DNA of 64,000 nucleotides from Acidovorax soli (GTDB taxonomy: Bacteria; Pseudomonadota; Gammaproteobacteria; Burkholderiales; Burkholderiaceae_C). Numbering within the stretch: the stretch's first letter is position 1; the number at the start of each line of letters is the position of its first letter. The translations under genes and the position numbers were made by a program. Of this stretch, positions 3,439 through 62,636 are shown in pieces. The notes under the pieces are model-generated. The model ran no database searches and was not told the DNA's origin. It saw only the letters and a program-made list of their open reading frames with translations. The DNA is taken from NCBI RefSeq assembly GCF_900107605.1, contig NZ_FNQJ01000002.1, forward strand, positions 186,001-250,000, read 5' to 3'.

Positions 3439-3490
3439 CGCCATGGCGCGGCAAGACTGCCGGCCGTCTGCCGCGCTGCACCCCGCAACG

Positions 3491-3530
3491 ACAAGGCCTG
3501 CCGGCGCGCACCGGCAGGCCTTGTGCTTTG
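3491..3530 (+). terminator. hairpin terminator after the DUF4148 gene
   Basis: A perfect 14-bp inverted repeat (ACAAGGCCTGCCGG at 3491-3504 and its complement at 3511-3524) encloses a 6-base loop and is followed by GCTTTG. It lies 52 bp after the stop codon and directly before the 271-bp element. The U-tract is weak, so termination strength is uncertain. Confidence 0.6.
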
Positions 3531-3801
3531 AGAGCCTGTTCACGATCTCGCAGGGGATCGCGTTGGAGCGCAATCGGGATGAGTGGATGCTTCGGGTGCG
3601 CCGCATGGGCTCGTGCCCATGCAAGCGGCCGGGGCGGCCTTGTCGCCCGATTTCGCTCCAACCCATCGGGCAGTGGTCTTTGCGGGCGGTCTGCGGCGTT
3701 GCGGCGCTTGTGGATAGCCGGGCTATCCACTGCACACCGCGCCTTGCATCCCATCGCGCAAAGACCGCTGCGCGACCCCTGGGAGATCGTGAACAGGCTC
3801 T
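3531..3801 (+). mobile_element. 271-bp MITE-like element, copy 1
   Basis: The ends are perfect 19-bp inverted repeats: AGAGCCTGTTCACGATCTC at 3531-3549 and its complement at 3783-3801. The symmetry extends imperfectly inward (GCAGGGGATCGC against CCAGGGGTCGC). Internally there is a 16-bp inverted repeat with one mismatch (3563-3578 with 3646-3661). There is an 8-bp hairpin GCATGGGC/GCCCATGC (3603-3622) and a near-perfect 21-bp palindrome GTGGATAGCC-G-GGCTATCCAC (3710-3730). No transposase is encoded; the short open frames inside are by-products of the palindromes. If the element proper starts at AGCCTG, the flanks TTGAG (3528-3532) and CTGAG (3800-3804) look like a decayed 5-bp target duplication. 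A second copy in the same orientation at 58268-58538 differs at only two positions. Related to an IS5-like parent is possible but not shown. Confidence 0.8.
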
Positions 3802-3836
3802 GAGGGCCGCTCCAAATGACCGGAGGTGAAACCACC

Positions 3837-58112: not shown

Positions 58113-58267
58113 GAAGGGGAAGGAATGGGCGTGCAGCGGATGCTGAAAAAGGAGGCAGCATTGTAGCTGCTCAAATTTTCAGCAAACGAAATGCACGCCC
58201 CCGCCAGATAGTGGAAATCAATGGCCGGTGCCGCCCTCCATCCGCGCCTTCTGGCGCCAGCGGACTC

Positions 58268-58538
58268 AGAGCCTGTTCACGATCTCGCAGGGGATCGCGT
58301 TGGAGCGCAATCGGGATGAGTGGATGCTTCGGGTGCGCCGCATGGGCTCGTGCCCATGCAAGCGGCCGGGGCGGCCTTGTCGCCCGATTTCGCTCCAACC
58401 CATCGGGCAGTGGTCTTCGCGGGCGGTCTGCGGCGTTGCGGCGCTTGTGGATAGCCGGGCTATCCACTGCACACCGCGCCTTGCATCCCATCCCGCAAAG
58501 ACCGCTGCGCGACCCCTGGGAGATCGTGAACAGGCTCT
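58268..58538 (+). mobile_element. 271-bp MITE-like element, copy 2
   Basis: Same length and orientation as the copy at 3531, differing at two positions: C for T in GTGGTCTTcGCGGGC and C for G in CCCATCcCGCAAAG. The 19-bp ends are intact (58268-58286 and 58520-58538). Taking the element as AGCCTG...CAGGCT (58270-58536), both sides carry CTCAG (58265-58269 and 58537-58541), a clean 5-bp target-site duplication. It is inserted between dusB and a lipoprotein gene; the lipoprotein stop codon TGA (58540-58538) lies in the right-hand duplication, so the coding sequence ends at the insertion edge. No transposase is encoded. Confidence 0.82.
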
Positions 58539-59089
58539 CAGCGCGCGGCCAGGTCCACCTCGGCCACGGCCGACGGCGCCGCTTTCCGGGCATAACGCCA
58601 CCAGGCGTCCGGCAGATTGTCGAGCTGGTGGCGCGCCATGAGCGCACGCAGCCACTGGCGGTTGTGCTGCACGTCGGGTGAAAAATCTGCACTGTGGCTA
58701 GCGGCCGCTGCGCCGCCGACGCCGGCAGCAGTGCCCATGTCCACCGCTTCGCCCTCGGCCAGCGGGCCGCGCACCACCTTGCTGGCCAGCAGGCCGTTCG
58801 CCACCTCCACCCGAACGGCCAGCGCGCCTTGCGACGCCTGGCATACGGTCTTCAGCACCAGCCCCTGGGCCTGCAACTCGCTGCGTGCACTGGCCACGGC
58901 GGCCCGCAGGCGCTCGTCCCCCGCGCAGCCCTCCTCCGCGGCGTTCCAGGCCATATGCGCCGGAGGCGGCGTCTGCCCAGACGCCGCGGACTGCGGGCTC
59001 TGCACACAGGCCGCCAGTGAGATGCCAGCGGCCAGTGACAGCCAGTACGTACGGCAGGGAAATCGGGGCGTCGTGGGGGTGATATGCAT
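58538..59089 (-). CDS. putative lipoprotein of unknown function
   Basis: A 183-residue protein with a lipoprotein signal: hydrophobic YWLSLAAGISLAAC with lipobox LAAC (C28). The mature part has EEGCAGDERLRAAVASARSELQ and a SLASK-like VANGLLASKVVRG segment; I recognise no family. GGAAGG upstream supports this start over an ATG eight codons earlier. The 3' end abuts the 271-bp element: the stop TGA is inside the CTGAG target duplication, so either the gene naturally ended there or the insertion trimmed a longer tail. Confidence 0.7.
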   Translation of the reverse strand: MHITPTTPRFPCRTYWLSLAAGISLAACVQSPQSAASGQTPPPAHMAWNAAEEGCAGDERLRAAVASARSELQAQGLVLKTVCQASQGALAVRVEVANGLLASKVVRGPLAEGEAVDMGTAAGVGGAAAASHSADFSPDVQHNRQWLRALMARHQLDNLPDAWWRYARKAAPSAVAEVDLAAR

Positions 59090-59237
59090 CGCAAGCCTTC
59101 CGGTGATTGCCAAGGGCGGGAGTCAGCCCACGATACAAACCCTGGCGCACCCGCGCCGTGGCCCAACAGCGCAGCGCCTTGTAGGACGGAATCCCCAGGG
59201 CCTGCGGCGCGCGCAATGCCGCCCTACACTTGCCCTC

Positions 59238-61391: not shown

Positions 61392-62636
61392 TCAGGGGGT
61401 GCGCACCTTGACGCGGGCGCCATCGGCCAGCGCAGCGGGCGGGTACACCACCAGCTGTGCACCCGCCTGCAGCCCCTCTTTCACCCAGGCATGGGTGCTG
61501 CCGCGCGCCTCCAGCACCACCGGCACGCGCCGCGCCCGGCCTCCATCGACCACAAACACCGCCATGCGGAACTCCGTGGAATCCGCGATGGGGGGCGCTG
61601 CGGCATCGGCGCTGGCGGGCAGCGGGAACAGCGCGCTCACCGGCACCAGGGTGGCGTCCTGCGCCTCGCGCGTGAGCACGCGCGCCACCACGCGGTAGCC
61701 GTCGCCCAGCGCGGCCCACTGTGCGGGGGGGCTGGTCAGGTCGATCAGCACGTTGACCCGTTGCTCCTCCACTCCCAGCGCCGAGACCTTGGTGAACGCC
61801 ACCGGCTCCACGCTGCGCACGCGCCCCTGCAACACGCCCGGGCCACCCCAGCGCTCAATGCGCACGGGGCTGCCGGGGTGTACCTGCAGCGCATCGGTGG
61901 ACAGCAGCGGTGCCACCACTTCGAGCTGCGCGGTGTCACCCACCTCGATGAGCACGGCGCCCAGCGCCACCACGCCCTCGCTGGCCTGCGCCACGCGCAG
62001 CACACGGCCGGCCACAGGGGTCAGCACCTCGAAGGCTTTGCCAACCTGCGTGCCGCCGGGCCGCTGCACCACGTCGAGCGCCGCACGGGCCTGGGCCAGG
62101 TCGGCGCGGGCCACCTGCTGGTCCTGCACCGCGGCGTCGGCGTCTTTCTCGGCCGCCTGCACCGCCAGGCGCTCGGTATCCAGCCGCGCGGGGGCCACAA
62201 AGCCCTGCTGCGCCAGCTGCTCGCTGCGGCGCAGGTCATGGCGGGCCTGTTCCAGCGCCACGCGGCTGCGCTCGATGCGCACGGCAGCGCGCTGCACACC
62301 GGCCTGAGCCGCCGTCACGCGGGCCTGCTGTTCACGCAGGCTGCGCTCGTCCAGCAGGGCCGGCAAACCGGGGGTCATGCGCGCCACCACGTCACCCGCC
62401 CGCACGGCATCGCCCTCGCGCAGCACAATGCGCGCCAAGCGACCGGCCAGCGGGGCCGAAATGCTGTAGCGATCGCGCAGGCGGGTTTTCGCGTCCTCGT
62501 CAACGCCAGCCTCGAAGCGCCCCTGCACCACGGCCGCCGTCTCCACCGGCAGCGGCCGGGGTGCAAATGCCCAGGCCAGCAAGGCGCCCAGCACCACCAG
62601 CGTCCCGCCACCCCAGATCACCGTTTTCTTCTGCAT
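61392..62636 (-). CDS. HlyD/RND-type periplasmic adaptor of an ABC exporter
   Basis: A 414-residue membrane-fusion protein. N-terminal anchor VIWGGGTLVVLGALLAWAFA, barrel-sandwich halves around ISAPLAGRLARIVLREGDAVRAGDVVARM and LTPVAGRVLRVAQASEGVVALG, and a coiled-coil hairpin between (RVTAAQAGVQRAAVRIERSR...). It links an inner-membrane exporter to the outer membrane or assists substrate release. GGGGAAG six bases before ATG favours this start; an ATG at 62678 overlaps the permease stop (ATGA) and would add 14 residues. The permease gene precedes it directly. Confidence 0.88.
   Translation of the reverse strand: MQKKTVIWGGGTLVVLGALLAWAFAPRPLPVETAAVVQGRFEAGVDEDAKTRLRDRYSISAPLAGRLARIVLREGDAVRAGDVVARMTPGLPALLDERSLREQQARVTAAQAGVQRAAVRIERSRVALEQARHDLRRSEQLAQQGFVAPARLDTERLAVQAAEKDADAAVQDQQVARADLAQARAALDVVQRPGGTQVGKAFEVLTPVAGRVLRVAQASEGVVALGAVLIEVGDTAQLEVVAPLLSTDALQVHPGSPVRIERWGGPGVLQGRVRSVEPVAFTKVSALGVEEQRVNVLIDLTSPPAQWAALGDGYRVVARVLTREAQDATLVPVSALFPLPASADAAAPPIADSTEFRMAVFVVDGGRARRVPVVLEARGSTHAWVKEGLQAGAQLVVYPPAALADGARVKVRTP

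Follow-up and report, generated by a model that had tools for sequence, protein, structure and literature searches.

What are the two nearly identical stretches at positions 3531–3801 and 58268–58538 of the window (the whole 64,000-nucleotide stretch of Acidovorax soli DNA that was analyzed), and how did they come to lie where they are? The preliminary description had read them as copies of a structured element that moves without a transposase of its own. The two copies have equal length, as described there, and differ at 2 of 271 positions (99% identical). Their flanks are unrelated and the similarity ends at the element edges; the copies therefore do not lie inside a larger duplication, the circumstance that the preliminary description had named as speaking against its own reading. 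The perfect 19-bp ends that it reported were present in both copies, but the outermost A/T pair belongs to a TNA target duplication. Since the 19th base is part of the duplication, the true inverted repeat has 18 bp, GAGCCTGTTCACGATCTC, and the element measures 269 bp. The terminal inverted repeat is perfect over 18 bp and imperfect over about 30 bp, and the target duplications are of 3 bp each, TGA for copy 1 and TCA for copy 2. The features of both copies are as follows.

3529–3531, no strand: target duplication TGA, left of copy 1
3532–3800, plus strand: MITE copy 1, 269 bp, ends GAGCC...GGCTC; one of the eight full-length copies in the genome
3532–3561, plus strand: left terminal repeat of copy 1, outer 18 bp perfect, inner part imperfect
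3562–3662, plus strand: palindromic arm 1 of copy 1; base 3562–3578 with 3646–3662, distal hairpin 3585–3639
3670–3771, plus strand: palindromic arm 2 of copy 1; tip GTGGATAGC/GCTATCCAC, with both-sided changes among copies
3772–3800, minus strand: right terminal repeat of copy 1; pairs with 3532–3561, 28 bp in the fold
3801–3803, no strand: target duplication TGA, right of copy 1
58266–58268, no strand: target duplication TCA, left of copy 2
58269–58537, plus strand: MITE copy 2, 269 bp, orientation as copy 1; empty site in genome G019 (locus L410)
58299–58399, plus strand: arm 1 of copy 2, by alignment; offset +54737 from copy 1
58407–58508, plus strand: arm 2 of copy 2, by alignment
58538–58540, no strand: TCA target duplication on the right side of copy 2; read on the minus strand, it forms the TGA stop of the open frame 58538–59113

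With 269 bp and no transposase gene, the element falls within the size of MITEs (below about 500 bp), and copy lengths across the family range from 266 to 292 bp (116 extracted copies). The internal palindromes that had been described are real: none of 200 dinucleotide shuffles folded as well as the 271-bp copies. That the element encodes no protein, as also proposed, is likely by the rough test of open frames, in which the best end-to-end frame is open in 60 of 116 copies. By eye, a GC-rich, strong inverted repeat resembling a terminator (AAGGCCTGCCGG...CCGGCAGGCCTT, window 3490–3525) lies just before the insertion point of copy 1.

The suggested count of copies, made with the 271-bp sequence in this genome and its relatives, found many dispersed copies. 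The genome assembly is a draft of 90 contigs and 4.13 Mb. It holds eight full-length copies, plus fragments; seven have the end type of the two window copies (94–100% identical) and one has other ends. This eighth copy (contig C70, L474), of which a first search had covered only 235 of 271 bases, is full length, is 91% identical to L268, has ends of the class GAACCTGTTCAATGTC and carries TCA on both sides. A 40-bp remnant of two ends lies between TAA duplications in the same genome (L475, contig C60, about 61,655–61,700), and minimal elements of 51 and 46 bp, with little beyond two facing ends, were seen in other genomes (L156, L158).

The spread of the family was searched in 99 genomes (its own, 46 of the same genus, 12 of the same family, and 40 of the same order), in each of which the best seven candidates were scored, so that copy numbers are lower bounds. 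Matches at E ≤ 0.001 were present in at least 51 of the 99 genomes and in at least 41 of the 46 same-genus relatives; five of the latter (G002, G008, G024, G031, and G037) had none among the scored candidates. Outside the genus, strong matches within this sample, again with seven candidates per genome scored, occurred only in G049 and G053, and a later search added two further 91% copies in G274, of another genus. A scan with the core pattern gave at least 114 stretches. Among the 80 matches listed, 72 came from Acidovorax or Paracidovorax, two from Polaromonas, two from Curvibacter, three from unassigned Burkholderiales, and one from a MAG labelled as Gammaproteobacteria. No phage matched the element. 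The one plasmid match (Comamonas odontotermitis, 71.6% identical) keeps the end stem and both arms with differing arm tips, and has matched ends GAACGTGTTTACGATC with TAA on both sides.

For the analysis of the flanks, 116 copies were cut out by their ends. Identical 3-bp flanks were found in 46 of them, all TNA. TNA stands on both sides of 65 copies, and the middle base agrees in 46 of these 65 against 30% expected (p 2e-11), although the insertion sites are not all independent (L021–L023 and L034/L035 look like shared insertions by their flanks). The empty-site consensus of the 46 duplicated insertions is CTNAG. When the flanks of copy 2 were joined, G019 was 95% identical over all 480 bases and had a single CTCAG at the junction, an exact empty site; the site is also empty in G033 (85%). 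Relatives without the element at the same place thus exist for copy 2, and the lack of any empty site, which the preliminary description had set against its reading, did not materialize. The left flank of copy 1 is not conserved in the aligned relatives, and for this reason copy 1 has no alignable empty site. At the orthologue of the copy 2 site in G037 (L412), an otherwise empty site contains a 19-bp insert that creates GTTCACGATCTC, perhaps a footprint of excision or deletion.

Most insertions lie between genes. By the calls of a simple codon-usage gene caller, 37 of the 42 distinct duplicated sites are intergenic or on a stop codon and five are inside a called gene; in a cruder first pass 28 of 106 elements overlapped a called gene, many only at the gene's beginning (by eye). 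The remaining gaps, counted after these 28 and 14 elements at locus edges had been left out of the 106, were tandem for 35 elements, convergent for 18, and divergent for 11, against 151, 67, and 68 background gaps, which is no clear bias, and a preference for a gene context was rejected. Copy 2 sits on the TGA stop of the open frame 58538–59113 and duplicates that stop. Insertions exactly on a stop codon made up 14 of the 37 intergenic-class sites with duplications; 9.1 (sd 2.0) would be expected if all TNA were equal, and the CTNAG preference alone predicts 13.3 (sd 2.0). As this prediction is close to the 14 observed, we rejected a targeting of stop codons.

An IS5-like parent had been guessed in the preliminary description. 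Other genomes do contain full-length elements of the IS5 family whose ends are of the same class and whose target duplications are TNA. We searched 399 genomes of the family for TNA plus an end plus a base that excludes the canonical MITE. Matches came from 13 genomes in 11 of 141 genera; the reversed-sequence control in the same 399 genomes gave no match in any row. Autonomous-type elements with ends like those of the MITE were L088, L168, L192, L194, and the truncated L209. L168 in G237 (L168/L186) measures 845 bp, is flanked by TCA duplications, has the ends GAGCCTGTTTACGATC and GAACGTGTTTACGATC, and carries one 271-aa transposase frame that matches PF01609, PF13340, and PF13586. Relatives of the L168 transposase occur in at least 31 of the 399 genomes and at least 21 of the 141 genera, with at most six candidates per genome scored. 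The assignment of these parents to IS5, made from transposase domains, is at the level of the family, above that of subgroups such as IS427, ISL2, and IS1031. The proposed check for an IS that begins with the MITE ends was thus borne out for the class of ends, while the exact 18-bp end was found in one IS only, the truncated L209 (G216), which begins with exactly GAGCCTGTTCACGATCTC in front of a transposase frame.

Both ends were located in 18 IS, which were chosen by their ends and are not a sample of all IS5-family elements; eight have perfect duplications, all TNA, and two are without a left flank. By end class, no separation is seen in the catalytic half of their transposases (mean identity 0.82 and 0.81 within classes vs. 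0.81 between) and a slight one in the N-terminal half (0.66 and 0.76 within vs. 0.62 between). At L099, near 1281–1431 and 2251–2640, an IS has doubled ends beside N, which probably arose in scaffolding across a repeated IS. Other short elements, of 266, 180, and 129 bp, share the end class and have no core match beyond the ends (three in G297, for each of which both ends were met, as L170/L175, L177/L179, and L181/L183; L160; and L182); judged by their ends, further MITE families seem to rely on a transposase of this kind.

In the window's own genome, ends with at most two mismatches occur at 16 places, all of which are MITE copies or fragments. When all 13 candidates of a transposase search were scored, only four weak matches resulted (best 2.5e-7), namely L473, the decayed C-terminal part of a transposase, and three distant pieces located at the ends of contigs, in which no end of the MITE class was found; a search with the L168 transposase gave none at E ≤ 1e-30 among the best 6 of 11 candidates. 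The genome has eight PF01609 matches, and among 30 PF01609 loci of the genus one has a related pair of ends. A draft of 90 contigs could have lost a multi-copy IS. No cognate IS was found in the draft genome, and mobilization in trans is therefore an inference.

The dispersed copies, the TNA duplications, the empty site, and the IS5-family relatives together support the original reading of a structured non-autonomous element, and we consider it very probable that both copies belong to one MITE family moved in trans by an IS5-family transposase. The movement itself, its timing, and which IS may have served this genome are read from comparison of sequences. The 18-bp ends would be the recognition sites of an IS5-family transposase of the kind encoded by the elements of about 845 bp (DUF4096 + DDE_Tnp_1); acting in trans, such an enzyme would move the 269-bp element to CTNAG-like targets and duplicate the central TNA.

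Two other origins have to be weighed against this one. A fixed repeat of the REP/ERIC kind, copied by recombination or within larger duplications and never transposed, would agree with the lack of a perfect duplication in 70 of 116 copies and with the occurrence of arm-2 tip variants alongside different end types (by eye), which indicates that copies may exchange sequence; yet the unrelated flanks, TNA duplications above chance, the CTNAG target, and an exact empty site make it barely credible. That the element's ends are IS ends would also be expected of an internally deleted copy of one IS (a type I MITE) with an IS-derived core. We regard this origin as very improbable, since none of the 116 cores matches any of the 18 IS compared at E ≤ 1e-4 and one core is common to elements with different end types.

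The element has a two-armed core, and its arms stay complementary while their sequence changes. Of 118 loci, 116 gave elements (L046 and L267 were dropped), 109 were left after removal of near-duplicates, and 99 entered the alignment; left out of it were nine copies of 278–292 bp (L238, L239, L240, L242, L247, L254, L257, L286, and L289) and L276. Measured against the dinucleotide shuffles, the fold of the window element has a z score of −12.6 with RNA parameters and −11.4 with DNA parameters. Over the 99 aligned copies the consensus structure has 100 pairs, 36 of them with both-sided changes; 97.8% of the cells pair and 806 are changed on both sides, against 35%–40% and at most 82 for structures slid by one to three columns. 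Predicted without G-U pairs, the structure consists of an end stem of about 29 bp and two arms, and 106 of its 107 pairs are common to both strands.

Such both-sided changes in the arms would also arise if the arms were a conserved RNA (a small RNA or a cis-regulator) under selection on the transcript. In 89 of 99 copies the plus strand has the better fold of the two, and with the plus-strand RNA fold the changes toward G-U outnumber those toward A-C by 95 to 44 across the whole core. Each strand, however, comes out ahead on its own RNA fold (161 to 49 and 78 to 40 cells), so the raw G-U excess comes partly from the choice of structure. On the strand-neutral structure of Watson–Crick pairs only, single changes toward G-U and toward A-C numbered 45 and 29 in the ends, 6 and 12 at the base of arm 1, 49 and 17 in its distal part (p 1e-4), 16 and 12 at the base of arm 2, and 16 and 29 in its distal part. 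The plus-strand excess shrank to distal arm 1, distal arm 2 leans toward A-C, and a conserved RNA is not claimed here. Orientation to flanking tandem genes is also even (15 same, 20 opposite), and a search of 801 bases against Rfam gave no match at E ≤ 1. Were a transcript under selection, G-U should be favoured on one strand over the whole structure; this is not so, and we therefore read the pairing as maintained on DNA. Function as a transcript seems unlikely to us. A template-switch process that restores stems is described in the available text of PMC8794818. Upkeep of the arms on DNA could proceed through arm-to-arm copying by replication template switching or through exchange between copies.

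Distal arm 1 (window 3585–3639), with its G-U excess on the plus strand, differs from the rest of the element. A GGGATG in arm 1 (window 3576–3581) is complementary to a CATCCC in arm 2 (3747–3752), partly outside the main stems; by eye, both are retained in the Comamonas plasmid copy, and an inter-arm pairing or a repeated protein site is possible.

The ends behave otherwise than the core. In 54 of the 99 aligned copies the left and right ends agree at all of their outer 16 bases, while 34 copies have one mismatch there and 11 have more; when right ends were dealt at random, 4.3 identical pairs resulted (maximum 12 in 2000 shuffles). Of the 198 MITE end 16-mers, 109 are identical to a member of a set of 16 IS end 16-mers, where column shuffles gave 48.5 (maximum 63), and 43 of the 99 copies have such an identity at both ends. 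On a tree built from the core only, the first five end bases change type 26 times (87 copies) against 40.3 when shuffled, and the ACG/CAA end class changes 6 times (78 copies) against 25.4. These changes are fewer than shuffled and still many, from which it follows that the ends follow the core in part and have switched repeatedly; support in the core tree is low (median 0.76) and recombination among copies is probable, so that the counts of events are approximate. Between L253 and L273, for example, the cores are 97.1% identical, yet either of the matched ends differs at 5 of 16 positions, and the ends of the 56 pairs with less than 4% core divergence differ by 15%. L252 and L286 combine the two major types, with a TTTT-type end on the left and a CTGCG/CTGGG-type end on the right, and look like recombinants between subfamilies.

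These data support a repeated replacement of the ends as matched pairs. As an alternative, the core could be under strong purifying selection while the ends drift freely, but drift alone leaves the matching of the two ends unexplained. The ends switch type more readily than the core changes, and for the most part both together; this fits selection for whichever IS5-family transposase is available. We tentatively propose, as a possibility only, that the MITE family survives by changing its partner: a conserved core would repeatedly gain matched ends suited to different transposases of the IS5 family, and each time the second end would be rewritten to the sequence of the first. This rewriting may take place via end-to-end template switching or conversion in the folded element.

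We compared the family with systems already described. None of five end strings was found in open-licence papers, and none of the matches listed in the open-licence MITE literature (Acidovorax, Comamonadaceae, Polaromonas, IS5) dealt with this element in its title or the start of its abstract. According to the available text of PMC6382973, MITEAba12 has 111–114 bp and 9-bp duplications, found in 40% of its copies, and ISAba12 is its proposed, co-resident parent. Like the window family, MITEAba12 is short and non-coding, shares its ends with an IS, and is spread throughout a genus, and the fraction of copies with duplications can be set beside our 46 of 116. In contrast to that account, the window family has 266–292 bp, a 3-bp TNA duplication, and a single core that carries several types of matched ends; in the window's draft genome no cognate IS was found. 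With the IS5-family IS (PF13340 + PF01609) the element shares the TNA duplication and ends of the same class, identical over 16 to 18 bp in several cases; unlike them, it has no transposase. MITEs were reported in Polaromonas sp. JS666 (Mattes et al., 2008, as cited in PMC10969869), which belongs to the same bacterial family as the window's genome, and the window core also occurs in two Polaromonas records among the matches listed; the JS666 MITE, which we know by that citation and not by its sequence, may be of the same or a related family. Correia/nemis and ERIC, as presented in the available text of a review (PMC2229807), are likewise palindromic, non-autonomous, and intergenic, and the window element is set apart from that description by its two covarying arms and exchangeable ends. 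The element is thus of an ordinary kind, and its uncommon feature is one conserved palindromic core with several matched end types.

Strong covariation without an evident RNA is a caution for the discovery of RNAs from covariation (compare the available text of PMC8794818). The family is genus-wide, with more than 100 extracted copies, relatives of autonomous type, and a known target. The survival of a non-autonomous element beyond a single transposase therefore becomes testable, since end types and IS types can be set against the phylogeny of the core in one genome after another. If the change of partners is true, the arms would keep both ends identical and let the element track whichever transposase is present.
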